A DNA stretch of 49,280 bases from Lachnospiraceae bacterium (GTDB lineage: Bacteria > Bacillota > Clostridia > Lachnospirales > Lachnospiraceae), in the NCBI GenBank assembly GCA_029338675.1, contig JAQYAV010000148.1, positions 1 to 49,280 on the forward strand, given 5' to 3'. The translations under genes and the position numbers were made by a program. Below are positions 5,700-48,872 of this stretch, in pieces. The notes under the pieces were generated by a model, which worked only from the letters and a program-made list of their open reading frames with translations, was not told the origin of the DNA and ran no database searches. The stretch's first letter is position 1; every line of letters starts with the position of its first letter.

Positions 5700-6245
5700 T
5701 TAGCCATATAACGATAGTATCATTTGAGCAGATTCAACCATCTTTCTGCCGAAATCCATACTATTCTTTTGAATATAACGAAAAGCTTCCTCTTCTGTAA
5801 GCCCATTTCTCTCCATGAGCATATGCTTTGCCTGGTCAACAATTTTCTGAGATTCTACATTTCTTTTCGGAGGTACTACCCGTTTCTTCTTAAGGCGTCT
5901 ATAAAATCCATCTGTAATCATACTAATAGTATTATTTAAATCATTAGCCCTAAATGGAATAATCAGCTTTACCATATTATCAGAAACTACTTCAAGGGAT
6001 TGATCTTTTGTCAAAACTATAGAGCCAAAATATTCTGGTAACATTCCAATTAACTCCGAATATCCCATATCTCTTAGTTGTTTTCCGCAAATTATTACAC
6101 CGTAATCACGATCATTAGCCACTCTTAGCACATCCGCGCCAGTATCACATATGTTTACATCAAGAAGCATTCCACTGTTTCTTACTATGCCAGCAATTCT
6201 ATTTGCATCTTCTGCCCTCGGCATCGCAACCAAAACACTGCCCAT
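5700..6245 (-). CDS. ANTAR-domain RNA-binding antiterminator with pseudo-receiver domain
   Basis: A 181-residue protein. Residues ~1-110 resemble a response-regulator receiver, but the strand that normally ends in the phosphorylated Asp reads YGVIICGKQ, with Cys in that place, so classical phosphorylation is unlikely. Residues ~115-181 form an ANTAR domain (helical bundle with VDQAKHMLMERNGLTEEEAFRYIQKNSM). ANTAR proteins such as EutV and NasT bind hairpins with six-base loops and stop transcription termination. Start 6245 is chosen because AAGGAG is 8 bases before that ATG; the GTG at 6251 is too close. It sits 18-24 bases after glnA, last in the operon, like the glnA-linked ANTAR regulators (NitR) of other clostridia. 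Candidate RNA targets are the AAAGGC-loop hairpins before pyrG, glnN, amt and dapL. How it senses nitrogen is unknown; contact with GlnA is a possibility. Confidence 0.93.
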   Translation of the reverse strand: MGSVLVAMPRAEDANRIAGIVRNSGMLLDVNICDTGADVLRVANDRDYGVIICGKQLRDMGYSELIGMLPEYFGSIVLTKDQSLEVVSDNMVKLIIPFRANDLNNTISMITDGFYRRLKKKRVVPPKRNVESQKIVDQAKHMLMERNGLTEEEAFRYIQKNSMDFGRKMVESAQMILSLYG

Positions 6246-6269
6246 ATGCACCGCTCCTTGTACACCATA

Positions 6270-7547
6270 TTAGAGTTTAACAAGATATCTGTTTATTTCC
6301 CAGTCGGAAACCTGAAGCATATAATCACGCCATTCCTGTTTCTTAAGTTTGACGTATAATTCCACAAATTCCTTTCCAAGAACTGATTTCATAAATTCAC
6401 TCTTTTCCATAAGACATATTGCATCTTTAAGATTCTCTGGCAAGTGCTTTTCACAGCCCTTTTGATGCTTCATCACCTCATCTGGATCAAGTTTTTCCTC
6501 CATTCCTCTAATTCCCGCTGCCATACACACTGCAAGGGCAAGATAAGGATTGGCTGAAGGATCAGGAAATCTCAACTCGACTTTAGTCTCGCCAAAATTT
6601 CTACGAAGCTTTACTAATGCATTTTCACCCTTTGTTGACCAATTAATTTCATTAGGTGCCTCAAAGCCTGATATTATTCTCTTATAAGAATTAACTGTTG
6701 GATTAGTTATTGCGCACATTTCTTTAGCATATTTTAGTATTCCACCAATAAAATATTTTGCCTGCTTTTTATCTGCTGTCTGGAATATATTATTACCATC
6801 CTTATCCTTAATAAAGAAATTCAAGTGCATTCCAGAGCCTGCGATATCCATCTTAGGCTTTGGCATAAATGTAGCATAAAGACCAAATCTTTTTGCAACT
6901 GAACGTACTGCAAATTTGAAGGTTGTAAGAGCATCTGCTGACTTCAAGCATTCTCCCTGTCTAAAATCTATCTCATGCTGGGCAGGAGCTTCTTCATGAT
7001 GGGAAGATTCTATTTCAAAGCCCATCTCCTCAAGGTTAAGAACCATTTCTCTTCTTGCATTTTCGCCAAAATCAACAGGACCTACATCCATATAGCCTGC
7101 TCTTTCGTGGGCAACTACAGTAGGAAGTCCATTCTCATCTGTATGGAATAAGAAAAATTCACACTCTGCATCTACAATGCTTGTATAGCCCTTCTGATTA
7201 ACCTTTTCAAGAGTATTTTTAAGTATTGTTCTTGGACTTAAGCTAAGCAAATTACCATCTGCATCACAAACATCACATATAAATTTGCCTACTCTTCCCT
7301 GCTGTGGGCGCCATGGAAGCACCACAAATGAATCAAGATCTGGATGAAGATATAATTCCTCATCATATCTGTACAAATTATCAAATAGAGCTGAACCAGC
7401 AAAGAAATACTCATTATTAAGTACTCTGTCCATCTGACATGGAGTTACTGCAACATTTTTAAGATTACCAAACATATCTACAAACTGTAATCTGATAAAC
7501 TCAATATCTTCGTCTTCAATTAACTGTAAGATTTCATCTTTACACAT
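6270..7547 (-). CDS. glnA: Glutamine synthetase type I (short, alpha-type)
   Basis: Makes glutamine from glutamate, ammonium and ATP in the cytosol. The 425-residue length and the lack of the longer adenylylated segment fit the short GSI-alpha form of Gram-positive bacteria and archaea. Visible motifs include the beta-grasp start (EFIRLQFVDMFGNLKN), ESSHHEEAPAQHEIDF and GSGMHLNFF for metal and ATP binding, and NPYLALAVCMAAGI in the catalytic barrel. AAAGGAG stands before the ATG, and only 16 bases separate it from gltD, so it is in the pyrG-gltBD-glnA operon. With the ANTAR gene immediately downstream, enzyme and regulator are made together. A second, unrelated-type glutamine synthetase (GSIII) is encoded at 37.7-39.8 kb. 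Confidence 0.97.
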   Translation of the reverse strand: MCKDEILQLIEDEDIEFIRLQFVDMFGNLKNVAVTPCQMDRVLNNEYFFAGSALFDNLYRYDEELYLHPDLDSFVVLPWRPQQGRVGKFICDVCDADGNLLSLSPRTILKNTLEKVNQKGYTSIVDAECEFFLFHTDENGLPTVVAHERAGYMDVGPVDFGENARREMVLNLEEMGFEIESSHHEEAPAQHEIDFRQGECLKSADALTTFKFAVRSVAKRFGLYATFMPKPKMDIAGSGMHLNFFIKDKDGNNIFQTADKKQAKYFIGGILKYAKEMCAITNPTVNSYKRIISGFEAPNEINWSTKGENALVKLRRNFGETKVELRFPDPSANPYLALAVCMAAGIRGMEEKLDPDEVMKHQKGCEKHLPENLKDAICLMEKSEFMKSVLGKEFVELYVKLKKQEWRDYMLQVSDWEINRYLVKL

Positions 7548-7563
7548 TATTATAAGGCTCCTT

Positions 7564-9075
7564 TCACACCAAATTTGTGTAACACATAAGTGAATAATCT
7601 ATCTGCTTCGCAGCCTCGCGGCCTTCCTTGATTGCCCATACAACTAGTGACTGTCCACGATGCATATCTCCAGCAGTAAATATTTTGTCGTCGCTTGTCT
7701 GATAACTACCCTCTTCAGTAGCTACATTTGTTCTCTCATTACATTTTACCCCAAATGCCTGTGTTACGTAAAGCTCTGAACCTAAAAATCCTGCTGCAAT
7801 TAACACAATATCTGCTTTAATTTCACTTTCTGTGCCTTTAACTGGCTCCATGTTAATTCTTCCTGTTTTTTCATCCTTCTTAGGCTCTAGCTTAATTGTT
7901 TTTAATGCTGTTAAATTTCCTTTGTTATCCTGAACAAATTCAGTCACTGTTGTCTGGAATATTCTTGGATCTTTTCCATAAACAGCAATTGCCTCCTCCT
8001 GACCATAATCAGTTTTAAGAACCTTTGGCCATTCAGGCCATGGATTACTTGCAAGTCTTTCCTTGCTTGGACATGGCATCATCTCAAGCTGAGTTACATT
8101 TTTAGCCCCTAAACGAATACTTGTTCCAACACAGTCGTTTCCTGTGTCACCACCACCAATAACTACGACCTCTTTTCCCTTAAGTGACTTAAATGAAAAA
8201 TCTGTTGCAGAAATTAATTTGGCTGAATCATAATTATAGTCAATAAGTTTTTTTGTTACCTCTGATAAGAAATCAACTGCAAAATATATTCCCTTTGCTT
8301 CACGACCTGGTGCCTTAATATCTCTTGGATTTGAAGCGCCACAGCAAAGTAAAACTCTATCGTATTTTTCCTTTAACTCCTTCGCAGTTATATCCTTACC
8401 AACATTAATATTATACTTAAATTCAATTCCTGCTTTCTCCATCAAGGCTATTCTTCTATCAATTACTGTCTTTTCAAGTTTCATGTTAGGAATACCATAT
8501 CTAAGAAGTCCACCTGCTCTGTCACTTCTTTCATACACAGTAACCTTATGTCCTCTCATATTAAGGAGCTGCGCTGCTGCCAAGCCTGAAGGACCACTTC
8601 CAACAATTGCTACTGTTTTACCTGTTCTGTTTTCAGGAATTCTTTCTTCAACTAATCCATTCTCATAAGCATATTCAATAATAGCCTTCTCATTTTCCTT
8701 TGTAGAAACTGGTTTACCTAGCAAACCACATGTACATGCTGCCTCACAAAGTGCTGGACATACTCTTGATGTAAACTCCGGAAAGCTGTGTGTTTTAGCT
8801 AATCTAATATATGCCTGTTCAAGATTTCCTCTATACACTAAATCATTTGTTTCAGGAATGAGGTTGTTCAGTGGACAACCTGATGCCATTCCTCCTATCA
8901 TTGTTCCAGCCTGGCAAAATGGAACCCCACATTCCATACATCTTCCAGCCTGACATTTTTGGTCTTTATCACTAAGTCTTTCGTGAAACTCATTAAAATT
9001 CTTTATTCTTTCTTTTGGTGAAACCGCTACAGGTTCCTTTCTTTCATATTCCATAAATCCAGTGGCTTTTCCCAT
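7564..9075 (-). CDS. gltD: Glutamate synthase small subunit
   Basis: The 503-residue NADPH-oxidising subunit passes electrons through FAD and iron-sulfur clusters to GltB. The N-terminal cysteine-rich part contains CQAGRCMECGVPFCQAG and CPALCEAACTCG; the FAD Rossmann motif is VGSGPSGLAAAQLL and the NAD(P)H motif is VIGGGDTGNDCVGT; a C-terminal TAGDMHRGQSLVVWA closes the FAD site. Start 9075 (MGKATGFMEY) is chosen because AGGAGG lies directly upstream; the upstream in-frame ATG has no ribosome site. It follows gltB by ~100 bases and precedes glnA by 16, forming the complete GS-GOGAT pathway in one transcript. Confidence 0.96.
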   Translation of the reverse strand: MGKATGFMEYERKEPVAVSPKERIKNFNEFHERLSDKDQKCQAGRCMECGVPFCQAGTMIGGMASGCPLNNLIPETNDLVYRGNLEQAYIRLAKTHSFPEFTSRVCPALCEAACTCGLLGKPVSTKENEKAIIEYAYENGLVEERIPENRTGKTVAIVGSGPSGLAAAQLLNMRGHKVTVYERSDRAGGLLRYGIPNMKLEKTVIDRRIALMEKAGIEFKYNINVGKDITAKELKEKYDRVLLCCGASNPRDIKAPGREAKGIYFAVDFLSEVTKKLIDYNYDSAKLISATDFSFKSLKGKEVVVIGGGDTGNDCVGTSIRLGAKNVTQLEMMPCPSKERLASNPWPEWPKVLKTDYGQEEAIAVYGKDPRIFQTTVTEFVQDNKGNLTALKTIKLEPKKDEKTGRINMEPVKGTESEIKADIVLIAAGFLGSELYVTQAFGVKCNERTNVATEEGSYQTSDDKIFTAGDMHRGQSLVVWAIKEGREAAKQIDYSLMCYTNLV

Positions 9076-9174
9076 GTTAATTCCTCCTTGACTAATAATC
9101 TTCGTCCTAACCAATATAGGTTTTTTTCATTGAAATCGGGTTATATTATAAGCTTCGATTTTAATGATATTACC

Positions 9175-12100
9175 TTACTTGAAGCTTTCATAAAACGCTT
9201 CGATTTGTGCTTTCTCATGATCCATACCCTGCTCCTCAAAATTAGCAGTAAGCTGCATCATCTTTTTATAATCTTCAGGAATTATCTTCTTGAATTTAGG
9301 CAAACTATTTTCAAAATCATCAAGTATTGCCTTTGCTTTTAAGGAATCTGTATATTTGTAATGTTTTTCAAGCATATCCTTAAGTATCTCTTTATCTGCT
9401 TTATTTACAATCTTCTCCATAAGAACCATTTCTTTGTTAAGATTCTTATATAAGCAGTTATTTTCATCATATACAAATGCTATTCCGCCACTCATACCTG
9501 CCGCAAAGTTCTTGCCTGTTGGTCCAAGGATAACTGCAACACCACCAGTCATGTATTCACATCCATGCTCCCCAACGCCTTCTACAACTGTCTTTGCGCC
9601 TGAATTTCTAACTGAGAATCTCTCTCCTGCCATACCTGCAATATACGCCTCACCAGAAGTTGCGCCATATAACGCAACATTTCCAACGATTATATTTTCT
9701 TCAGCATTGTATGAAGCATTCTTAGGTGCCTTTAATATAAGCTTTCCACCTGATAAGCCTTTACCAAAGTAATCATTTGAATCACCCACCAAATTAATAG
9801 TAAGTCCTGCTGAAGCAAATGCTCCAAAGCTTTGTCCACCAGCGCCCTCACAGTTTATTGTAATTGTGTCTTCAGCCAGTCCTTCGTGATGATACTTTGT
9901 TATTTCAGAACCAATTAATGTACCAAAGGTTCTATTTATGTTAGTTACCTTTGCATCAAGGCTAAGCTTTGTTCCATTCTTAATTGCTGCTTTAAGTCCC
10001 TTTACATTTGCAAGAAGCTTCTCATCTAATTCATTTTCAAGCTTGAAATCGTATACACTTTTTTCATCAAACACACAATCTTCTGTAGAATTCTGATATA
10101 ATATTTTGTCAAGTACGATTTTAGACTTGTTACCCTGTAATCCTTCTTTTTGTCTGATTAAATCAGTTCTTCCCACTAATTCCCTCACACTACGGACACC
10201 AAGCTTAGCCATATATTCTCTAAGCTCTTCAGCAACAAATTTCATAAAATTCTCAACGTATTCTGGCTTACCTATAAATTTCTTTCTAAGCTCAGGATTC
10301 TGTGTTGCAATACCCATTGGACAAGTATCGAGATTACATACTCTCATCATTACACAGCCCAAGGTTACAAGTGGTGCAGTAGCAAATCCGAACTCTTCTG
10401 CTCCAAGAATTGCTGCAATGGCAACATCCTTTCCACTCATAAGCTTTCCATCTGTTTCGATTACAACCTGCTTACGAAGTCCGTTCATAATAAGTGTCTG
10501 ATGTGTTTCTGCAAGTCCAAGCTCCCAAGGAAGTCCTGCATTGTGAATTGAACTAAGTGGAGCAGCACCTGTACCCCCATCATATCCAGATATAAGAATT
10601 ACTCCTGCTCCTGCCTTTGCAACACCTGCTGCAATTGTACCAACACCAGTTTCAGAAACTAATTTTACTGATATTCTTGCATCCTTATTTGCATTTTTTA
10701 AATCATATATCAACTGTGCCAAATCTTCGATTGAATAAATATCATGATGTGGTGGTGGAGATATAAGGCTTACACCTGGAGTAGAATGTCTTGTTTTAGC
10801 TACCCATGGATATACCTTCTTTCCAGGAAGATGTCCACCTTCACCAGGCTTTGCACCCTGAGCAAGCTTAATCTGAATCTCCTTTGCACTACACAAATAT
10901 CTACTTGTTACTCCAAATCTACCACTTGCTACCTGCTTAATTGCAGAGCTTCTATCATTCTTTGTTCCAGCAGTTTCAAGTCTTTCATCACTTTCACCAC
11001 CTTCACCACTATTTGATTTACCATGTAAATGGTTCATAGCAATTGCAAGCGCTTCATGTGCCTCCTCAGATATTGAACCATAGCTCATAGCACCTGTCTT
11101 AAATCTCTTAACAATTTCTTCAACTGGCTCAACTTCATTTATATCTATTGGATTCTCGGCATAATTAAAATCAATTAAGCTTCTAAGATATCCTGTTTCT
11201 TCTTTATCAACCATTTCAGTATATTGCTTAAACTTCTCATAGTTTCCTTCCCTAGTTGAAGTCTGAAGCATATGAATTGTCTGTGGATTGTATCTATGTT
11301 GTTCACCCTTTGCACGCATTTTATGACGTCCCATAGAATCTATTGTCTGATCAGTCTCTAATCCAAGAGGATCAAATGCAAGTGAATGCTGGTGGTCTGT
11401 CTGCTTTGCAATATCTGCTAAAGATATACCTCCAATTCTTGAGACTGTTCCTGTGAAGTACTTATCAATAACCTCTTTAGATATACCAAGTGCTTCAAAT
11501 ATTCTGCTTCCAAGATAAGACTGAATTGTTGATATTCCCATTTTTGATGCAATCTTAACAATTCCACCTATTACTGCATGATCATAGTCATCTACAGCGG
11601 CATAATAATCCTTCTCTAATAATTCTTCATCAATTAACTGCTTAATTGTTGCATGTGCAAGATATGGATTAATAGCACATGCACCATATCCCATAAGTGT
11701 TGCAAAATGGTGTACATTTCTTGGTTCAGCTGACTCTAAAATAAGTGACATTGCTGTACATTTCTTAGTCTGTACCAAATGTCTGTGAACTGCTGCAACT
11801 GCCAAAAGTGAAGGAATTGCAACATGATTTTCATCAACACCTCTATCTGAAAGAATTACTATATTAGCACCATTTTTGTATGCTCTGTCTACTTCAACAA
11901 ACAAATGCTCAATTGCTCTTTCAAGTGGTGTGCTCTTGTAATATAGCATTGATACCTTCTCAACCCTAAATTCCTTGCTATTAAGATTTGCAATCTTCAT
12001 AAGGTCAAGGTCTGTTAATATAGGATTTTCAATTTTAAGCATATGGCAATTTTCTGGTTTTTCTTCAAGTAAATTACCATTCTTGCCAAGATAAATTGTT

Positions 12101-13731
12101 GTAGCTGTAACAATTTTTTCTCTTGCAGCATCAATTGGAGGGTTAGTAACCTGTGCGAAGAGCTGCTTGAAATAGTAAAATAATGGCTGATATTCCTTTG
12201 ATAAAACAGCAATTGGAGTATCAACACCCATTGCACCAATGTGCTCTGAGCCATTTAATGCCATAGTTCTTATTTCATCCTTGTAATCCTCATATGTATA
12301 GCCAAATGCCTTTTGAAGCTTAACTAATGATTTATTATCATATGTAGGAATTTTCTCATTAGGTATTTTTACTTCCTTCAATGTAAGTAAATTACTGTCT
12401 AACCATTCTCCGTATGGCTCCTTAGAAGCATATACTTCTTTTAACTCTGTATCTGATATAATTTTGCCCTGCTTCATATCTACAAGAAGCATCTTACCTG
12501 GATGTAATCTTTCCTTCTTCAAGATATGAGTTTCATCAAGTGGCAAAACACCAACCTCTGATGAAAGAATTAATCTGCCATCATCCATAATATAGTATCT
12601 TGATGGTCTAAGACCATTTCTATCAAGAATAGCACCCATTACATCTCCATCAGAAAACAGGATTGAAGCTGGACCATCCCAAGGCTCCATCATAGTTGCA
12701 TAATACTGATAGAAATCCCTCTCCTTTTGAGAAATAGTATCGTTATGCTCCCAAGGTTCAGGAATTAAAATCATTGCTGCAAGAGCTGGCTCCATGCCAC
12801 CCATAATCATAAATTCAAGCGCATTATCTAACATTGCTGAGTCAGAGCCTTCTGCAGAAATTATTGGTAACACTTTAGCCAAATCCTCATCTGAGAAGCA
12901 ATCTGTATAAATTGTTTCCTCTCTTGCAAGCATCTTGTCTACATTACCTTTAATTGTATTTATCTCTCCATTGTGAACCACAAATCTATTAGGATGTGCT
13001 CTATGCCAGCTTGGATTTGTATTTGTTGAGAATCTTGAATGAACTAATGCCACTGCAGATTCATAAGCTTTATCCTGTAAATCATCGAAAAACAATCTAA
13101 GCTGTCCCACTAAAAACATTCCCTTATATACAATTGTTCTACAAGAAAGTGATGGTACATATGTATTTTCATTACTTTGTTCAAATACTCTTCTTATGAT
13201 ATATAGCTTTCTATCAAACTCTAAATCAGTTGTTGCCTCTGCTGGTCTTTTAACAAATGCCTGATAAATTCTTGGACAAGTCTCTAATGCACTTGCACCT
13301 AAAACGTTCTTTCTAACTGGAACCTCTCTCCAACCAATAAATGAAAGTCCTTCCTTTTGAACAATTACCTCAAACATCTTCATTGCCTGACTTCTAAGTA
13401 ATTCTTTCTCAGGGAAGAAAAACATTCCCACACCATAATTTCTTTCATTTCCTATATCAAAACCAAGCTTATCACATTCTTTTTTAAGGAATTTATGAGG
13501 TATCTGAGTCAATATACCAACACCATCTCCAGTTTTTCCTTCAGCATCCTTTCCTGCTCTATGCTCAAGATTTTCAACAATCTTTAATGCATCATCTACG
13601 ATTTGATGGCTTTTCTTACCATGAATATTTACAATTGCTCCTATACCACAGTTATCATGTTCAAACGAAGGATCATATAATCCTTTTCCCATTTTTATAT
13701 TATTTACTCTTTCAAGATTTTCATTATTCAT
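9175..13731 (-). CDS. gltB: Glutamate synthase large subunit
   Basis: The 1518-residue GOGAT large subunit. A class II glutaminase domain begins after a propeptide-like stretch of 27 residues; the nucleophile is Cys28 in DNCGIGA. The FMN/synthase domain contains GEGGESDER, GRFGVTSRYL and KPGEGGHLPG, and the 3Fe-4S cysteines are visible in CNLDTCPMGI with a preceding Cys in GCVMMRVC. The C-terminal GXGXG beta-helix is present (GAGGQSFGAF, GLSGGKL, GVAVILGPTGKNFAAGMSGG). AGGAGG precedes the ATG. It converts glutamine and 2-oxoglutarate into two glutamates. The 87-base gap after pyrG has a hairpin but no T tract, so co-transcription with pyrG is likely. Confidence 0.97.
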   Translation of the reverse strand: MNNENLERVNNIKMGKGLYDPSFEHDNCGIGAIVNIHGKKSHQIVDDALKIVENLEHRAGKDAEGKTGDGVGILTQIPHKFLKKECDKLGFDIGNERNYGVGMFFFPEKELLRSQAMKMFEVIVQKEGLSFIGWREVPVRKNVLGASALETCPRIYQAFVKRPAEATTDLEFDRKLYIIRRVFEQSNENTYVPSLSCRTIVYKGMFLVGQLRLFFDDLQDKAYESAVALVHSRFSTNTNPSWHRAHPNRFVVHNGEINTIKGNVDKMLAREETIYTDCFSDEDLAKVLPIISAEGSDSAMLDNALEFMIMGGMEPALAAMILIPEPWEHNDTISQKERDFYQYYATMMEPWDGPASILFSDGDVMGAILDRNGLRPSRYYIMDDGRLILSSEVGVLPLDETHILKKERLHPGKMLLVDMKQGKIISDTELKEVYASKEPYGEWLDSNLLTLKEVKIPNEKIPTYDNKSLVKLQKAFGYTYEDYKDEIRTMALNGSEHIGAMGVDTPIAVLSKEYQPLFYYFKQLFAQVTNPPIDAAREKIVTATTIYLGKNGNLLEEKPENCHMLKIENPILTDLDLMKIANLNSKEFRVEKVSMLYYKSTPLERAIEHLFVEVDRAYKNGANIVILSDRGVDENHVAIPSLLAVAAVHRHLVQTKKCTAMSLILESAEPRNVHHFATLMGYGACAINPYLAHATIKQLIDEELLEKDYYAAVDDYDHAVIGGIVKIASKMGISTIQSYLGSRIFEALGISKEVIDKYFTGTVSRIGGISLADIAKQTDHQHSLAFDPLGLETDQTIDSMGRHKMRAKGEQHRYNPQTIHMLQTSTREGNYEKFKQYTEMVDKEETGYLRSLIDFNYAENPIDINEVEPVEEIVKRFKTGAMSYGSISEEAHEALAIAMNHLHGKSNSGEGGESDERLETAGTKNDRSSAIKQVASGRFGVTSRYLCSAKEIQIKLAQGAKPGEGGHLPGKKVYPWVAKTRHSTPGVSLISPPPHHDIYSIEDLAQLIYDLKNANKDARISVKLVSETGVGTIAAGVAKAGAGVILISGYDGGTGAAPLSSIHNAGLPWELGLAETHQTLIMNGLRKQVVIETDGKLMSGKDVAIAAILGAEEFGFATAPLVTLGCVMMRVCNLDTCPMGIATQNPELRKKFIGKPEYVENFMKFVAEELREYMAKLGVRSVRELVGRTDLIRQKEGLQGNKSKIVLDKILYQNSTEDCVFDEKSVYDFKLENELDEKLLANVKGLKAAIKNGTKLSLDAKVTNINRTFGTLIGSEITKYHHEGLAEDTITINCEGAGGQSFGAFASAGLTINLVGDSNDYFGKGLSGGKLILKAPKNASYNAEENIIVGNVALYGATSGEAYIAGMAGERFSVRNSGAKTVVEGVGEHGCEYMTGGVAVILGPTGKNFAAGMSGGIAFVYDENNCLYKNLNKEMVLMEKIVNKADKEILKDMLEKHYKYTDSLKAKAILDDFENSLPKFKKIIPEDYKKMMQLTANFEEQGMDHEKAQIEAFYESFK

Positions 13732-13818: not shown

Positions 13819-15417
13819 TTATATATTTTTAAGTGTTGCTTCTATCAAGCCTCTAAACAAAGGATGTGGATCATCAGGTCTTGACTTAAATTCAGGATGT
13901 GCCTGAGTTGCCACAAAAAATGGATGTTGATTTATCTCCACCATCTCAACTATTCTTCCGTCTGGAGATATACCCGAAAGCTTCATTCCATTTTCAACAA
14001 GAACCTGTCTATAATCGTTATTAACCTCATATCTATGACGATGTCTTTCTTCTATTTTTTCTTTTCCATATAGCTTAAGTGCTACTGTATCCTTTTGAAG
14101 CACACAAGGATATGCGCCAAGTCTAAGTGTTCCACCAAGATTTTCAACTTCATTTTGCTCTGGCATAAGAGTTATTACTGGATTGGTTGTTTCTGGATTA
14201 AGCTCAATGCTTGCAGCATCCTTTATATTACAAACATGTCTTGCAAATTCTACTATTGAAAGCTGCATTCCAAGACAAAGACCTAGGAATGGGATATTAT
14301 TTTCTCTGGCATATTCTATTGCCATTATCATTCCTTCAGTACCTCTTGTTCCAAATCCTCCTGGAACAATTATTCCTTGTACCTCCTTCAACTGCTCTGC
14401 CACATTCTGTGTTTCTAATTCTTCTGAATCAATCCACTTAATTTCCACCTCGGCTTTATTAGCTATACCGCCATGCTTTAGTGCCTCAACAACACTTATA
14501 TATGCATCATGTAACGCAACATATTTTCCAACCAAAGCAATCTTTACTTTACATTTTGGATTTTGAAAATCCTCAACCATCTGTTTCCATTTTGTTAAAT
14601 CAGGTTCTGGACAAGGAAGCTTCAAGCACTCTAGTACTGCTCCTGCAAGATTTTCTTCTTCCATCATAAGAGGAACCTCATACAAAGATTTCGCATCCAG
14701 ATTCTGAAGCACATGTTCTTTTTTTACATTACAAAACAGTGCTATCTTCGCCCTCATCTGATCATCCACAGGATAATCTGATCTACACACTAATATATCT
14801 GGCCAAATTCCCATACTCTGAAGACTCTTTACACTCATCTGTGTAGGCTTTGTTTTCATTTCTCCGGAAGATTTAAGATACGGAATAAGTGTTACCTGAA
14901 TCATTATTGCATTTTCTCTTCCAACCTCAGCCTGAAATTGTCTAAAGGCTTCCAAAAATGGCTGGCTTTCAATATCTCCTACAGTTCCACCTATTTCAAT
15001 AATCGAAATAGTATCTTCATCCTCTGTTTTAGCCTTATAAAATCTATCCTTTATCTCATTAGTGATATGTGGAATAACCTGTACTGTTCCACCCTGATAA
15101 TCTCCATGTCTTTCTTTATTTAATACCGACCAATATATCTTTCCTGTTGTAACGTTGGAGTTTTTATCAAGATTCTCATTAATAAATCTCTCATAATGGC
15201 CAAGATCCAAATCTGTTTCACAACCATCCTCAGTAACAAATACCTCTCCATGTTGAATAGGATTCATTGTTCCTGGGTCCATATTTATATAAGGATCAAA
15301 CTTCTGCATCGTTACATGATACCCTCTTGCCTTAAGCAATCTACCTAACGACGCTGCTGTTATTCCCTTACCTAATCCAGAAACAACACCGCCTGTAACA
15401 AAAACATACTTTACCAT
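13819..15417 (-). CDS. pyrG: CTP synthase
   Basis: A 532-residue enzyme that aminates UTP to CTP using glutamine. The N-terminal synthetase domain starts [20 protein letters not shown] (P-loop) with the product-binding region [15 protein letters not shown]; the C-terminal class I glutaminase has its Cys in GLCLGMQ and the His-Glu pair in [11 protein letters not shown]. Ribosome site GAGAGGAG precedes the ATG. It is the first gene of the gltBD-glnA-ANTAR operon, which places a glutamine consumer ahead of the assimilation genes. Its 105-base leader has a promoter and an AAAGGC-loop hairpin overlapping a terminator, so expression should depend on the ANTAR protein encoded at the end of the same operon. 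Confidence 0.97.
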
Positions 15418-15446: not shown

Positions 15447-15504
15447 AAACAAAAAGGCGCCAAATAAGCCTGATAAATCAGGTTTATTTGACGCCTTTGT
15501 CAAA
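15447..15504 (-). promoter_or_regulatory. AAAGGC-hexaloop antiterminator overlapping a terminator (pyrG leader)
   Basis: On the minus strand TTTGAC, loop AAAGGC, GTCAAA forms a 6-bp hexaloop hairpin (15487-15504). The bases AAAGGCGTCAAA are at the same time the 5' arm of a ~21-bp terminator hairpin (15453-15498) followed by TTTTTG. The two folds exclude one another. Loop A1 and G4 fit the ANTAR target rule, and the core resembles the AGCAANGRRGCU motif described for eut genes. Antitermination by the ANTAR protein is inferred. Confidence 0.82.
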
Positions 15505-15528: not shown

Positions 15529-15557
15529 AGTCTACCATCTTTTACGTTCTTTGTAAA
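15529..15557 (-). promoter_or_regulatory. Predicted promoter of the pyrG operon
   Basis: TTTACA (15552-15557) and TAGACT (15529-15534) are 17 bases apart on the minus strand. Transcription would start near 15522, about 18 bases before the hexaloop hairpin. The -10 match is moderate. Confidence 0.5.
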
Positions 15558-24000: not shown

Positions 24001-24278
24001 TGTCCGCCAAGGTTAGGAAGGATAGCATCTGGACGCTCCTTAGAAATAATCTGCTCTAATCTCTTAACATTAAGCGGCTCGATGTATGTTACATCAGCTA
24101 TACCAGGGTCTGTCATAATTGTAGCAGGATTTGAATTAACCAATACTATCTGATAACCAAGCTGTCTTAAAGCTTTACATGCCTGAGTTCCTGAATAATC
24201 AAACTCACATGCCTGTCCAATAATGATTGGACCTGAACCGATAATCAATACTTTCTTGATATCTTCTCTCTTACTCAT
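21066..24278 (-). CDS. carB: Carbamoyl-phosphate synthase large subunit, stand-alone copy
   Basis: A 1070-residue CarB with both duplicated ATP-grasp halves: GSGPIIIGQACEFDYSGTQAC and ILGGGPNRIGQGIEFDYCC begin the two halves, TMGGAGGG and VLGGRGME are glycine-rich ATP loops, [22 protein letters not shown] and EANPRASRTVPLVSKV are metal-binding ends, and a C-terminal MGS-like allosteric domain (TVLISVSSKDKPEV) follows. The sequence features GQACEFDYSG and the ELELEVVRDA region resemble the enterobacterial type more than Bacillus PyrAB. Start 24278 has AAGAGG before it. No carA lies beside it, so it must use a glutaminase subunit encoded elsewhere (perhaps the one at 45-46 kb). It is preceded by an unusual attenuator-like leader. 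Confidence 0.95.
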   Translation of the reverse strand: MSKREDIKKVLIIGSGPIIIGQACEFDYSGTQACKALRQLGYQIVLVNSNPATIMTDPGIADVTYIEPLNVKRLEQIISKERPDAILPNLGGQSGLNLCSELASEGILDKYNVKVIGVQVDAIERGEDRIEFKKTMDKLGIEMARSEVAYSVEEALAIADKLGYPVVLRPAYTMGGAGGGLVYNVEELKTVCARGLQASLVGQVLVEESILGWEELELEVVRDAKGNMITVCFIENIDPLGVHTGDSFCSAPMLTISEECQKRLQEQAYKIVNEVEVIGGTNVQFAHDPVSDRIIVIEINPRTSRSSALASKATGFPIALVSAMLAAGLTLDEIPCGECGTLDKYVPGGDYVVIKFARWAFEKFKDSEDKLGTQMRAVGEVMSIGKNYKEAFQKAIRSLEIGRYGLGFAKDFNEKTKDELLKMLIYPTSERQFIMYEALRKGATVDELFNLTKIKHYFIQQMKELVEEEEALLAMKGSVPSKEVLETAKKDGFSDRYLAKLLEVSEADIRNARTGYGIVEAWEPVHVFGTQDREYYYSTYCAPDNTKVSDKKKIMILGGGPNRIGQGIEFDYCCVHAAFALKELGFETIIVNCNPETVSTDYDTSDKLYFEPLTLEDVLSIYHKEKPVGVIAQFGGQTPLNLAADLKANGVNILGTSPEVIDMAEDRDLFRAMMEKLEIPMPEAGMAVNVEEALEIAERIGYPVMVRPSYVLGGRGMEVVNEPESLKQYMAAAVGVTPDRPILIDRFLRHATECEADAIADGKHAFVPAVMEHIELAGVHSGDSACILPSKNIPEDLVATIKEYTRKIAEEMGVCGLMNMQYAIEDGKVYVLEANPRASRTVPLVSKVCNVQMVKLATEIMTRELTGKPSPISDLKEVKTNYYGVKEAVFPFNMFQEVDPVLGPEMRSTGEVLGLSENVGEAFFKAQEATQTRLPKEGTVLISVSSKDKPEVVDVAKKFEECGFGILATGTTYELLVANGVKAERINKMQEGRPNIVDAVMNGKVQLIINTPATKEEKLFDDSYVRKTAIKAKVPYFTTMAAAKATADGIYTVIKEGEIGVKSLQEIHSI

Positions 24279-24330
24279 AATAACCTCTTTCTGTTGGATA
24301 AACCAACTCATTTTCTATTGCTATTATTGC

Positions 24331-24501: not shown

Positions 24502-24512
24502 AATGCTCCTCC

Positions 24513-24565: not shown

Positions 24566-24636
24566 AACATGTTAGTACAGTAAAAATCTAACATATTCAT
24601 GCTTCATATACGTGACTTCAAATAACCACTTGCTAC

Positions 24637-37568: not shown

Positions 37569-37628
37569 AAACATCTCTCCCTTCGATTTTACAAATCACA
37601 TTATCTTCTGCCATAAATTTATGCTATT

Positions 37629-37669
37629 AAAATAGGCGCGTCTTCTTAATAGAAAACGCGCCTTTGCGT
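37629..37669 (-). promoter_or_regulatory. AAAGGC-hexaloop antiterminator overlapping a terminator (glnN-amt spacer)
   Basis: ACGC, loop AAAGGC, GCGT (37656-37669) overlaps the 5' arm of a terminator (37635-37662: GGCGCGTTTTCT, loop ATTA, AGAAGACGCGCC, then TATTTT on the minus strand). There is no promoter-like pair between the glnN stop and this site, so it acts on read-through from glnN and decides whether amt is transcribed. Confidence 0.8.
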
Positions 37670-39881: not shown

Positions 39882-39924
39882 AAAAAAAGCGCCTTGGAAC
39901 CTTAGTTCCAAAGCGCCTTTGCTT
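39882..39924 (-). promoter_or_regulatory. AAAGGC-hexaloop antiterminator overlapping a terminator (glnN leader)
   Basis: AAGC, loop AAAGGC, GCTT (39911-39924) shares bases with the 5' arm of a perfect-looking terminator (39885-39920: GCGCTTTGGAAC, loop TAAG, GTTCCAAGGCGC, then seven T, minus strand). The core AGCAAAGGCGCT differs at one base from the AGCAANGRRGCU motif known for EutV targets. Confidence 0.85.
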
Positions 39925-39935
39925 CTATGTCTGTA

Positions 39936-39964
39936 ACTATATCACTACAATTTTTTATTGTCAA
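39936..39964 (-). promoter_or_regulatory. Predicted promoter of glnN
   Basis: Consensus TTGACA (39959-39964), 17 bases, TATAGT (39936-39941). Transcription would start near 39929, only about five bases before the hexaloop hairpin. The -35 nearly abuts the stop of the preceding gene (39973). Confidence 0.75.
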
Positions 39965-41817: not shown

Positions 41818-44800
41818 TTAGAATATCTCTGCTACACTTATTGTTTGTTCCTCAAGTACATCTAATAATACCTTTACAGTATCAAGAGATGTAAATGTAG
41901 TTACGTTATTTTCAATTGCACATCTTCTAATAGCAACACCATCTACATAATGTACCCCTGACAATATTGCACGTGTATTAATCATATAGCTTACGTATCC
42001 TGCTCTAAGTGTTTCTAATACCTCTTCACTTCCCTCACTAAGCTTTCTACGTATTCTAGTTCTAATTCCATGTTCTTTAAGAAACTCTGCAGTACCAACT
42101 GTTGCTTCAATATTGAAGCCCATATCATAGAATCTCTTAATAAGTGGAAGTGCCTCTTCCTTATCCTCATCAGCAAGGGTTACAAGTACTGTTCCATAAC
42201 TACGAAGCTTGATTCCTGATGCCACAAGAGCCTTGTACATGGCACGATGAAGCTTACAGTCATAGCCAATTGCCTCACCTGTTGATTTCATTTCTGGTGA
42301 TAAATATGCATCCATTCCCTTTAATTTAGAGAATGAGAATGCTGGTGCTTTTACATACCATTTGTCTCGTTCCTCTGGATATAAGTCAAGTAAACCTTGC
42401 TCCTTAAGACTTACACCAAGTATGGCAAGGGTTGCTATATCTGCAAGGGAATAGCCTGTTGCCTTAGACAAAAATGGTACTGTTCTAGACGATCTTGGAT
42501 TAACCTCAATAATATATACGTCTTCATTTTCATCAACAATAAACTGAATATTAAATAAACCAATAATTCCTATTCCAAGACCAAGCTTTTTAGTATATCT
42601 AAGTATTGTTCCCTTAACCTTATTTGAGATACTAAATGGTGGATATACACTCATAGAATCTCCTGAATGTACACCTGTTCTTTCAACAAGCTCCATAATA
42701 CCAGGGATAAATACATCCCTTCCATCACAGATTGCATCAACCTCTACTTCTTTACCTTTAATGTATCTATCAACCAATACTGGCTTATCCTCATCTACTT
42801 CAACGGCAGTCTTTAGATAATGTCTCATATCTGCTTCTTTAGAAACTATCTGCATGGCTCTACCGCCTAACACAAAGCTTGGACGAACCAATACTGGATA
42901 ACCGATTTCGGCCGCTGCCTTAACTCCGTCTTCAATATTAGTTACTGCAACACCCTTTGGTTGTGGAATATCTAAATCAAGTAAAAGCTTTTCAAAGGAA
43001 TCTCTATTCTCTGCCTTATCAATAGCTGCACAGTCTGTACCAATGATATTAACTCCGTATTCTCTTAATGGATCAGCAAGATTAATAGCAGTCTGACCGC
43101 CAAGTATTGCAATAACACCCTCTGGCTTTTCCATCTCAATTATATTCATTACATCTTCAACACAAAGAGGCTCAAAATAAAGCTTATCTGAAGTAGTATA
43201 ATCAGTTGAAACTGTTTCAGGGTTATTATTTATTATTATTGCCTCATAGCCTTCTGCTTTAATTGTCTGAACAGCATGCACAGTTGAATAGTCAAACTCT
43301 ACACCCTGACCTATTCTTATTGGACCTGAGCCTAGAACTATTACTTTCTTTTTGTCAGAGATAATTGACTCATTTTCCTCTTCATAAGTTGAATAAAAAT
43401 ATGGTATATAGCTTTCAAACTCTGACGCACAAGTATCAATCATCTTATATACAGGGAACATATTATTTGCTTTTCTAAGATCAAATATCTCCCTTTGGGT
43501 CTTTTTCCACTGTCTTGCAATTTCTCTATCTGAAAAGCCTAATCTCTTTGCCTTATACAATACATCAAGGCTGCCAATATTATTAGCAAGCTCATTTTCC
43601 ATAGAAATTATATTTCCAAGTTTTCTTAAGAAGAATAAATCTATGCCTGTTTCAAGGTGTACATTCTCGTAGCTTTCACCTCTTCTAAGTAACTCAGCAA
43701 CAGCATATATTCTGTCATCTGTACCTGTTTTTATATACTTGTTCAAGGAAGCATTATCTTCTTCGTCAAATTTGTTATGATGTAAATGAAATACACCTAT
43801 CTCAAGGGATCTAATTGCTTTAAGTAAGCTCTCCTCGAAGGTTCTTCCTACACTCATTACTTCTCCTGTAGCCTTCATCTGAGTTCCAAGAGAATTATTT
43901 GCATCATTAAATTTGTCAAATGGGAATCTAGGCATTTTACAAACAACATAATCAAGTGCTGGTTCAAAGCTTGCAAGAGTATTAGCCAAATTAATTTCAT
44001 CTAGTCTAAGGCCAACGCTTATCTTTGCTGAAACTCTGGCAATTGGATATCCACTTGCCTTTGATGCAAGAGCTGACGATCTTGAAACTCTAGGATTAAC
44101 CTCTATCAAATAATACTGGAAGGACTTAGGATCTAAGGCAAACTGAACATTACATCCACCCTTTATATCAAGTGCACGTATTATTTTAAGTGCGCTATCT
44201 CTAAGCATGTGGTATTCCTTATTAGTTAAAGTCTGAGATGGACATACAACAATAGAATCTCCTGTATGAATTCCAACAGGGTCAAGATTTTCCATATTAC
44301 ATATTGTTATTGCTGTGTCATTTGCATCACGCATTACTTCGTATTCTATTTCTTTGTAGCCCTTTACACTCTTTTCTATAAGTACTTGATGTACAGGCGA
44401 AAGGACTAATGCATTTTTAAGTATTTCATGAAGCTCCTCATCATCTGAAGCGAAACCTCCACCTGTTCCTCCTAGGGTAAATGCAGGTCTTACAACAACA
44501 GGGAAGCCTATTTCATGGGCTGCTGATATACCTTCCTCCATACTCTCTGCAATAAGTGAAGGAAGAACTGGCTCACCTAAAGAAAGGCAGAGTTCCTTAA
44601 ATAATTCCCTATCCTCTGCTCTATTAATACTATCTATATCTGTTCCAAGAAGCTCAACATTACACTCCTTTAATACACCCTTTCTAGCTAACTGCATTGC
44701 AAGATTAAGTCCAGTCTGTCCACCTATTCCTGGTAAGATAGCATCTGGTCTTTCCATTCTTATTATCTTTGCAACAAATTCAAGTGTGAGCGGCTCCATA

Positions 44801-44994
44801 TAGACCTTATCTGCAATTGTCTGATCTGTCATTATTGTGGCTGGGTTAGAGTTACAAAGAATAACCTCATAGCCTTCTTCTCTAAGGGCAAGACATGCCT
44901 GTGTTCCTGCATAATCAAATTCTGCAGCCTGTCCAATTACAATTGGACCTGAACCAATTACTAATACTTTATGAATATCTGTACGCTTTGGCAT
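41818..44994 (-). CDS. carB: Carbamoyl-phosphate synthase large subunit, PyrAB-like copy
   Basis: A 1058-residue CarB adjacent to its glutaminase subunit. The opening [38 protein letters not shown], and [19 protein letters not shown] closely follow Bacillus PyrAB wording, unlike the other copy at 21-24 kb. Two ATP-grasp halves ([40 protein letters not shown]) and a C-terminal MGS-like regulatory domain are complete. A GGAGG site sits in the end of carA, and the genes are one base apart, so translation is probably coupled. It supplies carbamoyl phosphate for pyrimidines and arginine using glutamine nitrogen delivered by CarA. Confidence 0.95.
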
Positions 44995-44995
44995 A

Positions 44996-46093
44996 TTACT
45001 TATCCTCCTTCCAAGCTTTCATCATATCAATAAATCCGTCAAACAAATATGCACTATCCTGTGGTCCTGGTGCACTCTCTGGATGGTACTGTACCGAAGA
45101 AACAAAGTCTGCTTTCGCTCTTACTCCTTCAACAGTATTATCCAGCAAATTCATATGTGTAATCTCAAGACCTGTTCCATTTACACTATGAGAATCAACA
45201 GCGTAGGAATGATTTTGAGATGTTATCTCTATCTTATCTGTCAATAAGTTCTTAACTGGATGATTTCCGCCTCTATGACCAAACTTAAGCTTATATGTCT
45301 TGGCGCCATAAGCAAGGGAAATAATTTGATGACCTAAGCATATTCCAAATATTGGACATTTTCCAATTAAATTCTTTATTGTGGAAATAGTTGCAGTTAC
45401 ATCTGTTGGATCTCCAGGTCCGTTTGATACAAATACGCCATCTGGTTTATAAGATAAAATCTCTTCTGCAGTTGTATCAAATGGAACTACTGTTACATAG
45501 CAACCCTTATCAACCATCATTCTTACGATATTAGCCTTCATTCCACAATCAATAGCCACTACATGATATGAACTATTTGCTTTATCTCCTGCAGTATAGC
45601 TTTCCTTAACTGTTACTCTCGAAACCGCATCCTTTGGTGGATTGTAATCCTTAAGTAGCTTAACTGCCTCTTCAGTTCCAATATCATTTCTTGTAATCAA
45701 TGCCTTACAGCTACCATACTCTCTTATATGTCTTGCAAGCTTTCTTGTATCCACATCAGAAATACCAACAATGCCATACTTCTTCATTATATCCTGCAAG
45801 GAATTCTTACTTCTAAAATTAGAAGGCTCATCATTGTAATCTCTCACAACAAAGCCTGACATTGTAGGAGTTTTTGTTTCGTAATCATCATCATTTATTC
45901 CATAATTACCAATAAGAGGATAAGTCATAACTACCGCCTGGTCAGTATATGAAGGATCAGACATTATTTCCTGATAACCTACCATAGAAGTATTAAACAC
46001 AAGCTCTACAACTGCATCCTTTTCAGCACCGAAGCCTTTTCCAACAAAGCAGGCTCCATCCTCTAATATAAGTTTGCATACATTTTGCTCCAT
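44996..46093 (-). CDS. carA: Carbamoyl-phosphate synthase small (glutaminase) subunit
   Basis: A 365-residue subunit. The N-terminal CarA-specific domain begins [22 protein letters not shown] and contains [21 protein letters not shown]; the C-terminal class I glutaminase has the Cys in FGICLGHQI and the His-Glu pair in [11 protein letters not shown]. Start 46093 matches the usual family N-terminus; a start at 46141 would overlap purF and add 16 residues without family support. It is third in the dapL-purF-carA-carB operon. Confidence 0.95.
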
Positions 46094-46140
46094 AATGCGT
46101 CTCTCACTTTCTTTACAATTAATCCATAAATGAACTGCCA

Positions 46141-47526
46141 CTATTGCACTGGATAGTTATTGTCAAAACATGCTTTACATATTGGCAAATCGCCTGTCAT
46201 ACATGTAAAATCTGATATATCCATATAACCTAAGGAATCTGCACCAATTGATTTGCATATTTCTTCCATCGACATATTATTTGCAATAAGCTGCGAATTA
46301 TCTGGTACATCAGTACCATAATAACACGGATATAGGAAAGGTGGCGAGCTAATTCTTACATGAACTTCTTTTGCACCACTTTTTCTAAGCATATGAATTA
46401 AATTTGCAATGGTTGTTCCTCTTACAATTGAATCATCTATTAATACTACTCTTTTGTCTTTAACAACACTTTCAAGAACATTTAGTTTTGCTCTTACTGC
46501 ACTTGTTCTCTCTTTTTGCGTTGGTTTAATAAAGGTTCTTCCCACGTAACTATTTTTATGAAATGCTATTTCAAAAGGTATTCCCGTTTCCTTCGCATAG
46601 CCAACTGCTGCCACCAATCCCGAATCTGGAACCCCTGTAACAACATCTGCCTCTACAGGATATCTTCTTGCAAGTGCTCTTCCACCTTCAATTCTTGCGT
46701 CATATACATTAATCCCATCAAGCTTTGAGTCAAGTCTTGAAAAATAAATATATTCAAATATACAGTGTGCTCTTTTTTCTGTTTTTAAATGATAATCTAT
46801 ATGTATTCCGGCCTCTGTAATGGTTAAAATCTCACCTGGCTCAATATCTCTAATGAACTCACCGCCAACAGAATCTATGGCACAGCTCTCTGATGCAACA
46901 ATATAGCTATCGCCAAGCTTACCAAGGCAAAGGGGCTTTATTCCAAGAGGATCTCTTACTGCAACAAGCTTTCTAGGGCTTAGTACTAAAAGTGCATATC
47001 CCCCTTTTATTTTTTGTGCAGTACTATAGACAGCTTCTTCAATGGAATCAAGAGACACTCTTTCTTTGGCAATTCTATATGCAATAGTCTCAGAATCAGA
47101 GCTTCCATTAAATACTGCACCTTCCATCTGGAGTTCTAATCTTAATTCATCTGCATTTGTAATATTTCCGTTATGTGCTAGTGCAAGTGTTCCCTTTAAA
47201 TAATTAAGCACAATCGGCTGTGCGTTTGCCACACAGCTAGCACCCGCAGTAGAATATCTTACATGTCCTATTCCAATATTGCCATGAAGCTTTTCAATAA
47301 TATCCTGATGAAAAACCTCACTTACTAAACCCATATCCTTATGAGAGCATATATTTCCTATAGGTCCTTTTGTATCACAAACAACAATTCCTGCCGACTC
47401 CTGACCTCTGTGCTGAAGCGCCAAAAGTCCCTGATATATTGTCTGTGAAACATCATCTGTATCACAGCCTCCCCATATTCCAAATACACCGCACTCCTCA
47501 TGCACGTGATCATTTAACTCAATCAT
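46141..47526 (-). CDS. purF: Amidophosphoribosyltransferase
   Basis: First step of purine synthesis: PRPP plus glutamine to phosphoribosylamine. The 461-residue protein has an 11-residue propeptide ending HEE before the class II glutaminase nucleophile Cys (CGVFGIW). The PRPP loop is VVLIDDSIVRGTT, and the four iron-sulfur cysteines of the Bacillus-type enzyme can be placed (HCIFEYIYF, YPCYYGTDVP, and CKACFD with two). AGGAG precedes the ATG. It lies outside any purine cluster and next to carAB, joined by their common use of glutamine. Confidence 0.96.
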   Translation of the reverse strand: MIELNDHVHEECGVFGIWGGCDTDDVSQTIYQGLLALQHRGQESAGIVVCDTKGPIGNICSHKDMGLVSEVFHQDIIEKLHGNIGIGHVRYSTAGASCVANAQPIVLNYLKGTLALAHNGNITNADELRLELQMEGAVFNGSSDSETIAYRIAKERVSLDSIEEAVYSTAQKIKGGYALLVLSPRKLVAVRDPLGIKPLCLGKLGDSYIVASESCAIDSVGGEFIRDIEPGEILTITEAGIHIDYHLKTEKRAHCIFEYIYFSRLDSKLDGINVYDARIEGGRALARRYPVEADVVTGVPDSGLVAAVGYAKETGIPFEIAFHKNSYVGRTFIKPTQKERTSAVRAKLNVLESVVKDKRVVLIDDSIVRGTTIANLIHMLRKSGAKEVHVRISSPPFLYPCYYGTDVPDNSQLIANNMSMEEICKSIGADSLGYMDISDFTCMTGDLPICKACFDNNYPVQ

Positions 47527-47589
47527 TTTTTTCCTCCATATAAATAAAACATCAGCATAATAAAACTTTTTTACACACTCTTATATAAT

Positions 47590-48807
47590 TTACAGTGCCT
47601 TTATTCTATCAATTGCTCTTACTGTGTTTTCATATGTTCCAAATGCAGTAAGTCTGAAGTATCCTTCTCCACTTGGACCAAAGCCTGAGCCTGGAGTTCC
47701 TACAACATTTGCCTTTTCTAATAAGTAATCAAAGAAATCCCATGAAGTCATATTATCAGGTGTCTTAAGCCAAATATATGGTGCATTAACACCACCTGAT
47801 ACTTTATAACCAGCATTCTTCAAGCCTTCAAATATATATTTTGCATTATTCATATAATAAGCAATCTGCGCCTTTGTCTGTTTCTTTCCTTCCTCTGAAT
47901 ATACTGCATCCCCAGCGGCCTGAACAATATAAGGTGCGCCATTATATTTTGTTCCATGTCTTCTTGCCCAAAGTGCATTAAGCATTACTCCGTCTTCACT
48001 TACCAACTGCTTAGGAATAACCGTAAAGCCAAGTCTTGTACCTGTAAAGCCTGCATTTTTAGAAAAGCTTCTAAGCTCTATAGCGCATGTTTTAGCCCCA
48101 TCACATTCATAGATTGTATGTGGCACATTATCTTCACTTATATATGCCTCATATGCGGCATCATATATAATTACTGCCTTGTTCTCGTTTGCATAATCAA
48201 CCCATTTTTGGAGCTGCTCCTTAGTAATAGTAGCACCTGTTGGATTATTAGGGAAGCAAAGATATATTATATCTGGTGTTTCCTTTGGAAACTCAGGTGC
48301 AAAATTATTCTCTTCTTTACATGGCATGTATATTACATTGCTCCACAAGCCTGTTGCAGAATCGTATGTGCCTGTTCTTCCTGCCATAACATTAGAATCA
48401 ACATAAACTGGATAAACAGGATCACATACAGCAATCTTATTATCAAGTGAAAAAATCTCCTGAATATTTCCAGAATCACATTTTGCTCCATCACTTACAA
48501 ATATTTCATCTATATCTATGTTTACGCCTCTACTCTTATAGTCATTTTTTGCAATTGAGCTTCTCAAAAATTCATAGCCAAGATCAGGTGCATACCCCTT
48601 AAAGGTTTCCTGAACTCCCATCTCGCTCACTGCCTCATGAAGTCTGTCAATAATTGCAGGGGCAAGTGGTTGTGTAACATCACCAATACCAAGTCTAATA
48701 ATCTCCTTTTCAGGATTAGCAGCCTGATACTCTCTAACCTTTTTTCCGATAGTAGAAAATAAATAACTTCCTGGTAACTTCAAATAATTCTCATTCGCCT
48801 TAAACAT
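47590..48807 (-). CDS. dapL: LL-diaminopimelate aminotransferase
   Basis: A 405-residue fold-type I PLP enzyme that makes LL-diaminopimelate directly from tetrahydrodipicolinate with glutamate as amino donor. The N-terminus [22 protein letters not shown] and [10 protein letters not shown] are hallmarks of DapL; the cofactor region contains [17 protein letters not shown] and the Schiff-base Lys in [22 protein letters not shown] precedes the ATG. It leads the purF-carAB operon and so sits directly behind the strong promoter and hexaloop leader, tying lysine/cell-wall precursor supply to nitrogen state. Confidence 0.95.
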
Positions 48808-48828
48808 AACATTCCTCCATACTCACAT

Positions 48829-48872
48829 AAAAAAAGAGGCACTTTGGACCTTGTCCAAAGCGCCTTTGCTTT
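48829..48872 (-). promoter_or_regulatory. AAAGGC-hexaloop antiterminator overlapping a terminator (dapL leader)
   Basis: AAAGC, loop AAAGGC, GCTTT (48857-48872) overlaps the 5' arm of the terminator (48838-48864: GGCGCTTTGGAC, loop AAG, GTCCAAAGTGCC, then CTCTTTTTTT on the minus strand). It controls the dapL-purF-carA-carB-methyltransferase-AIRS operon. Confidence 0.85.

Follow-up and report, generated by a model that had tools for sequence, protein, structure and literature searches.

We analysed a 49,280-nucleotide stretch of Lachnospiraceae bacterium DNA (GenBank assembly GCA_029338675.1, contig JAQYAV010000148.1; hereafter the window) in which genes that make or use glutamine lie behind four short RNA leaders and near a gene for an ANTAR-domain regulator; the regulator gene, the leaders with their promoter-like sequences and the genes behind them are all on the minus strand. 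The regulator gene (5700..6245), proposed in an earlier sequence-only reading of this DNA, is real: its 181-residue product has a degenerate receiver, a helical linker and a C-terminal ANTAR domain (PF03861, E = 2.7e-19; 69.1 bits against a cut-off of 27.3). Directly 5' lies glnA, encoding a type I glutamine synthetase (6270..7547; PF00120, E = 8e-103), preceded by gltD (7564..9114) and gltB (9175..13731), the small and large subunits of glutamate synthase (open reading frames named from sequence alone), and by pyrG, encoding CTP synthase (13819..15417; PF06418, E = 3.6e-127). These five genes follow one another with only short gaps in between, and past the ANTAR gene comes a terminator-like site (5693-5667, minus strand), the presumed end of a pyrG-gltBD-glnA-ANTAR operon. 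Thus, pyrG does have the leader assigned to it earlier, but as the head of a pyrG-gltB-gltD-glnA-ANTAR row rather than as an isolated target. Elsewhere in the window, glnN (type III glutamine synthetase, 37695..39788; PF12437, E = 1.1e-81) and amt (ammonium transporter with a fused PII domain, 35823..37574; PF00909, E = 2.9e-122, and PF00543, E = 2.6e-23) are consecutive, each with its own leader, and dapL (LL-diaminopimelate aminotransferase, 47590..48807; TIGR03542, 606 bits against a cut-off of 365) is followed by purF, carA and carB (41818..47526; open reading frames likewise named from sequence alone), with which it is probably co-transcribed.

Each of pyrG, glnN, amt and dapL is preceded by a hairpin with the loop AAAGGC, a C-G closing pair, and A and G at loop positions 1 and 4 (A1 and G4); all four hairpins, with their differing but paired stems, lie where the sequence-only reading had placed them. 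The loop core is, as also claimed there, one base off the AGCAANGRRGCU motif as quoted in the accessible text of PMC3369931. Before the pyrG operon, the hairpin (15505-15486, ATTTGAC.AAAGGC.GTCAAAT; E = 0.97 in the bacterium's own genome with a hairpin-only model, R2) overlaps an intrinsic terminator (15452..15498) and follows a promoter-like TTTACA-17-TAGACT (15529..15557, 9/12 matches). Before glnN, the hairpin (39925-39910, GAAGC.AAAGGC.GCTTT; E = 2.2e-6 in the same genome with the hairpin–terminator covariance model R1, described below) accompanies a terminator at 39884..39920 and a promoter-like TTGACA-17-TATAGT (39936..39964, 11/12 matches) 10 nucleotides (nt) 5' of it. The dapL-purF-carAB hairpin (48872-48857, AAAGC.AAAGGC.GCTTT; R1 E = 3.3e-6) has its terminator at 48831..48867 and a promoter-like TTGACT-17-TATAAT (48882..48910, 11/12 matches) 9 nt 5'. 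Between glnN and amt, the amt hairpin (37669-37656, ACGC.AAAGGC.GCGT; R1 E = 2.3e-4) and terminator (37629..37665) belong to a leader that begins 25 nt past the glnN stop codon; its best promoter-like sequence has 8/12 matches and, lacking a strong promoter of its own, this device may be an internal attenuator. The terminators were located by folding and pattern search, and in 4/4 leaders the 3' arm of the hexaloop hairpin also serves as the start of a strong terminator's 5' arm, with a T tract after the terminator; the overlap noted earlier is borne out. Computed folding energies were −3.8 to −5.2 kcal/mol for the hexaloop hairpins and −21.4 to −27.0 kcal/mol for the terminators. Because the terminator fold is far more stable, the hexaloop form would need help to prevail.

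Devices of this kind are not expected by chance: the window holds four with AAAGGC, compared with a mean of 0.03 and a maximum of one in 60 dinucleotide shuffles. The looser class of A1..G4 devices numbers six in the window (mean 1.88, maximum four in 25 shuffles), and since shuffles average 1.88, the two beyond the four are chance-like. In the complete genome (2.85 Mb, 99.97% complete), 5700-6245 was the only ANTAR match at E 0.001, in agreement with the claim of a single local regulator, and pattern searches and models R1 and R2 gave no further convincing site beyond the four. Because every genome search had limits, a divergent fifth site is possible: one search pattern fitted the pyrG site alone, and R1 misses that site, probably owing to its long terminator, while R2 recovers it. 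Among the matches set aside, C45:21079 is a plain terminator whose hexaloop has no closing pair, C54:24029 lies within a coding frame with no terminator seen, and C163:5468, a hexaloop-like hairpin plus terminator after an upstream gene and at least 150 nt before an apparent ATP-synthase cluster, is probably a plain terminator. By eye, no overlapping terminator was seen at the R2 matches C96, C132, C69 and C126, and no terminator hairpin at C16, C61 and C128; the R1 match C41:67446 (E = 8.5) fell outside the set of inspected matches. An Rfam scan of the window returned no family at gathering score, and in a scan of 20 related loci (E 0.01) one tRNA and one Clostridiales-1 match below gathering score lay away from the sites. 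All four sites of the genome fall within 33 kb (window 15486-48872), and relatives such as G002, G011 and G128 also cluster their sites on one contig.

The hairpin–terminator device is conserved in relatives. A search with the regulator protein gave 50 loci, by title mostly from Lachnospiraceae or unclassified Clostridiales. Without assuming a loop, we surveyed terminators in 53 sequences, namely the window and 52 loci, two of which were cut from the same contig as the window. Among 303 terminators, 67 overlap a hexaloop hairpin; 38 of these hexaloops have A1 and G4 (the next class has seven) and 19 are exactly AAAGGC. The 38 include L002, which duplicates the pyrG site of the window, and four poor sites (L011, L015, L025 and L051), whose removal left 33 (set A2); as these were selected on their stems, their paired percentage is circular. 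Of the 33, we used 18 compact sites to build R1, leaving aside those with long terminators. The model gave 100 matches from 91 sources (set A4), in which the presence of A1 and G4 in 100/100 loops is circular, R1 having been built on such loops. A further set (A5) joins 70 of 76 filtered A4 hairpins with 12 other sites.

Across the 100 R1 matches, the hexaloop hairpin has a stem of at least four pairs in 93, and the closing pair is absent in two, one of them L069. Two-sided covariation was found in 92 cells of the hexaloop hairpin, compared with 33 after shuffling, and in 215 cells of the terminator, compared with 46. In this alignment, the hairpin and the terminator, competing helices with an arm in common, both covary. 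The hairpin signal is not built in, because R1 scores the hairpin 5' arm as plain sequence, although the sequences are related. With loop and pairing kept in the relatives, the lack of conservation that the sequence-only reading had named as one of its possible refutations was not seen.

The most distinctive property of the leaders is what they lack. The ANTAR leaders published to date (PMC3369931 and PMC8164766) are recognized by a pair of hexaloop hairpins, P1 and P2. Upstream of the 100 R1 matches, an A1..G4 hexaloop with a stem of at least three pairs occurred in 10, compared with 9.9 in mononucleotide shuffles, and one with at least four pairs in 4, compared with 3.6. A promoter-like sequence with at least 10/12 matches was instead present in 72/100 of these upstream regions (2.6 in mononucleotide shuffles), with the −10 box ending 10–19 nt before the loop in 64 of the 72, a spacing that leaves no transcribed room for a P1. 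With the start set 7 nt past the −10 box, the hairpin is predicted to begin at about +4 (median; +2 to +6 in 52/67 sites) and the leader to end at a median of 47 nt (range 40–59, 67 sites).

Among the 27 class-level sites outside the family, 15 have a promoter-like sequence of at least 10/12 matches whose −10 box ends 10–24 nt ahead of the loop; in the rest, the promoter-like sequence is weaker or lies further away, or, at L173, the hairpin is missing. Five of the 27 carry an upstream A1..G4 hexaloop with at least four pairs. Two of these are candidates for P1, at L163 (AATGGA, 6-bp stem) and L185 (AGTGTT, 4-bp stem), both with a promoter-like sequence further upstream; that of L183 lies within the promoter, and those of L187 and L191 belong to a second complete hexaloop–terminator unit. 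Tandem complete units before one gene were seen at L156:4001-4107 (minus strand), L169 at about 1501-1610 (plus strand), and L187 and L191 (upstream of position 300). Such tandem units are attenuators in series rather than P1 plus P2. By these counts, single hexaloops are the rule within the family and frequent beyond it; the class probably has two-hairpin leaders as well. The missing P1, overlooked in the sequence-only reading, is the real novelty of the system.

To characterize what the leaders control, we identified the first gene behind 122 sites, a few stretches being counted repeatedly (for example L156, L126, L142 and L120 on both strands). It was glnA in 32, glnN in 30, amt in 13, purF and gltB in six each, pyrG in four, carA in two and dapL in one; two sites had no reading frame and 26 first genes were unmatched by window proteins. 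Pfam assigned these 26 to circularly permuted ATP-grasp (six), aspartyl-tRNA synthetase (AspRS, five), asparagine synthase (four) and PPDK_N (two), with one each of diaminopimelate epimerase (followed by dapL), glutamate dehydrogenase, FAD oxidoreductase, a transposase before purF, NAGidase, YefM before YoeB, amidohydrolase and a family-less frame before a solute-binding protein; one 39-residue fragment lay outside the Pfam scan. In the two AspRS loci tested, the next genes encode GatC and an amidase-family (GatA-like) protein. In eight loci, dapL stands directly after glnA-ANTAR, itself often headed by a site. The sites before NAGidase, YefM/YoeB and FAD oxidoreductase, with a few others, fall outside the glutamine theme. 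The shared theme, judged from gene content, is the making and spending of glutamine, with DapL/DapF as a recurrent companion; the earlier grouping of ammonium uptake and assimilation with glutamine users and DapL holds in relatives, where most downstream genes make or use glutamine. The ATP-grasp protein heads L078, L106, L124, L138, L145 and L160, and a link of these six sites to the glutamine economy is suggested. Behind two further sites lie phosphoenolpyruvate-synthase-like PPDK_N proteins of 856–885 residues (L102:473-3040 and L147:1350-4004).

Sites and ANTAR genes co-occur at three taxonomic depths. Among 31 genomes of the genus, including the bacterium's own, the ANTAR gene was found in 21 and sites (E 0.05 or better) in 22: sites were present in 21/21 genomes with the gene and 1/10 without (Fisher exact test, P = 5e-7), the exception, G445, being 71% complete. 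In 150 genomes of the family, again including its own and with sites at E 0.01, the gene occurred in 131 and sites in 107 (106/131 with the gene, 1/19 without; P = 1e-10); here the exception, G137, is 81% complete. Across 291 genomes of the class, 145 had the gene (143 over cut-off) and 84 had sites, which were present in 71/145 genomes with the gene compared with 13/146 without (P = 1e-14).

An AlphaFold2 model of the regulator itself, from a 34-sequence alignment (mean predicted local distance difference test score 89.4), had EutV bound to RNA (6ww6) as its best PDB fold match. The EutV RNA contacts K149, E160 and M172 (corresponding to K140, E151 and M163) are invariant in 34/34 sequences, and Y164 is H, F or Y; other contacts differ. 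None of the 34 has an Asp at window-protein positions 53–56, where strand 3 ends, or, at 96, the Lys that precedes the conserved Pro in phosphorylatable receivers. With these phosphorylation residues missing, a kinase is an unlikely input; a ligand, or a partner protein that signals glutamine or ammonium status, would be likelier.

The presence of one ANTAR gene and four sites, conservation and covariation, co-occurrence at three depths and the glutamine-linked genes together support ANTAR antitermination, as the sequence-only reading proposed. Very probably, the four leaders are attenuators read by the local, NitR-like ANTAR protein through a single hexaloop at the RNA 5' end. Several observations weigh against this interpretation. 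EutV requires P1 in vivo, so on the EutV model a single hexaloop should not suffice. The window protein differs from EutV at several RNA contacts mapped by hand (Q replaces R142, K147 and R168, D replaces N173 and G replaces R175), and one of five hairpin covariation measures, the number of pairs with two-sided change, is at shuffle level (4 compared with 3.2, reached by 184/500 shuffles). As the genomes share ancestry, the Fisher P values are overstated. Moreover, R1 matches occur in 13/146 ANTAR-less genomes of the class, three of them strong (L163 in G265, L168 in G435 and L183 in G418), and a permissive search gave no over-cut-off ANTAR match in any of those 13 or in G137. Conversely, 25/131 ANTAR-positive genomes of the family have no R1 match; 20 of these were examined 5' of the ANTAR gene, where five have a promoter-proximal single hexaloop and 15 have none.

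These points can be set against three other explanations. The leaders could be ordinary two-hairpin leaders whose P1 sits at a greater distance upstream or is too weak to be recognized, as the possible P1 at L163 and L185 (2/27 sites outside the family) and a weak A1..G4 hairpin 5' of glnN (39952-39935) would allow. However, upstream A1..G4 hexaloops are at chance level in the 100 R1 matches, 64/72 strong-promoter sites have no room to transcribe a second hairpin, and the glnN candidate overlaps the promoter; we regard this explanation as unlikely. That G265, G435 and G418 each have a strong site although no ANTAR gene was detected in them raises the possibility that the leaders are real attenuators read by another factor, the ANTAR gene merely travelling with nitrogen genes. 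Sites and ANTAR gene, the one gene whose distribution was compared with theirs, are nevertheless jointly absent within one genus, and the A1..G4 loop rule is the published ANTAR rule, so that a different reader seems very unlikely. Least probable of all, we think, is that the inverted repeat past the −10 box is a DNA operator and the RNA hairpin incidental. Its dyad symmetry and its place directly after the −10 box would suit a repressor, yet it is the asymmetric 6-nt centre that is conserved, and the arms change in ways that preserve pairing, opposite to what an operator would show. Furthermore, the 458 paired hairpin cells include 30 G-U pairs, at which symmetry in the DNA is broken, the same arm covaries with a distant terminator arm, and the sites are missing where the RNA-binding ANTAR gene is missing.

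Under ANTAR antitermination through a single hexaloop, the promoter would start an RNA whose first ~20 nt can form the A1/G4 hairpin on leaving the polymerase. When no active ANTAR protein is available, the terminator would prevail and transcription would end ~47 nt from the start; an active regulator would hold the hexaloop hairpin, block the terminator and let the polymerase read through, the binding and the direction of activation being inferred, as are the start site and the operons. Read-through would reach the glutamine-making glnA, glnN, gltBD and amt, the glutamine-consuming pyrG, purF and carAB, and dapL. Since the ANTAR gene sits in one of the leader-headed runs, it probably regulates itself. 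The fixed place of the hairpin at the RNA 5' end may take over the recruitment role of P1.

Two further features of the window stand apart from the four leaders. Before the first carB (21066-24311), the stretch 24311-24600 holds a terminator-like structure that includes CAAAGGCG but lacks a proper hexaloop stem; it may be an attenuator of another kind. An AAAGGC at 24550 was left uncounted, its hexaloop stem being only 2 bp, and translation in one frame gave stops, so we make no claim of a leader peptide there. At 31381-32925, a predicted protein carries a repeated NNQGMNGF(S/G)QP-like segment close to its N terminus.

Comparison with described systems places the leaders near, but outside, the dual-hexaloop RNA family. 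The eut leaders and EutV of Enterococcus faecalis, in the accessible text of PMC3369931 and PMC8934654, share the A1/G4 hexaloop, the overlap of the P2 3' arm with the terminator, the C-terminal ANTAR domain and the fold, but have P1 plus P2 and a phosphorylated receiver; the system studied here has a single hairpin, placed at the predicted 5' end of the RNA, and its receiver lacks phosphorylation residues. For EutV, P1 is required in vivo and is explained as a recruitment hairpin, and the extent of single-hexaloop use is left open in the accessible part of PMC8934654. Unlike the eut, nas and ami leaders, those of the window have no P1 recruitment hairpin; because P1 was tested for and not found, they are set apart from that family. 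AmiR of Pseudomonas (1qo0; PMC3369936, as far as accessible) also belongs to the ANTAR proteins and has a pseudo-receiver that is not phosphorylated; it is controlled by AmiC, which binds amides. Dual-hairpin ANTAR regulons, for example in Desulfotomaculum, include ammonium transporters, PII and genes for glutamate and glutamine synthesis in the accessible text of PMC3369931. Nitrogen genes thus stand behind ANTAR leaders there as here, but those regulons were found by a two-hairpin model, and ours lacks P1 and extends to amidotransferases, aspS-gatCA and dapL/dapF. The earlier suggestion that an extension of ANTAR control to nucleotide and lysine synthesis is new stands for this breadth (amidotransferases, Asp-tRNA amidation and DapL/DapF), but not for nitrogen genes as such, for which ANTAR control is already published (PMC3369931, accessible text).

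A nitR antiterminator is mentioned for Clostridium in the accessible part of PMC4676874; NitR of solventogenic Clostridium is, like the regulator here, an ANTAR-type antiterminator tied to nitrogen genes. At the Clostridium tertium locus L047, the order is glnA-ANTAR, with a single hexaloop AATGGC before glnA. NitR adjoins glnA in solventogenic Clostridium. We found no such RNA element described for NitR, in contrast to the defined element and wider gene set reported here. In the literature searched, which excluded most subscription papers, there was no description of single-hexaloop ANTAR antiterminators and no paper combining 'ANTAR domain' and Lachnospiraceae.

The leaders are apparently natural single-hexaloop antiterminators, numerous and at a fixed place at the RNA 5' end, which makes the single-hexaloop question directly testable, and they provide a search model for sites unfit for a two-hairpin model. 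We favour, with some reserve, the broader view that a single 5'-end hexaloop suffices, promoter proximity replacing P1, and that by way of so small a switch an ANTAR protein with a pseudo-receiver governs glutamine economy globally, from uptake and synthesis to amidotransferases and Asp-tRNA amidation, in Lachnospiraceae and many other Clostridia. If so, the regulator must catch the hairpin within the first ~30–45 nt transcribed, perhaps near the initiating polymerase. The genes behind these leaders represent a candidate glutamine-economy regulon for Lachnospiraceae and other Clostridia.

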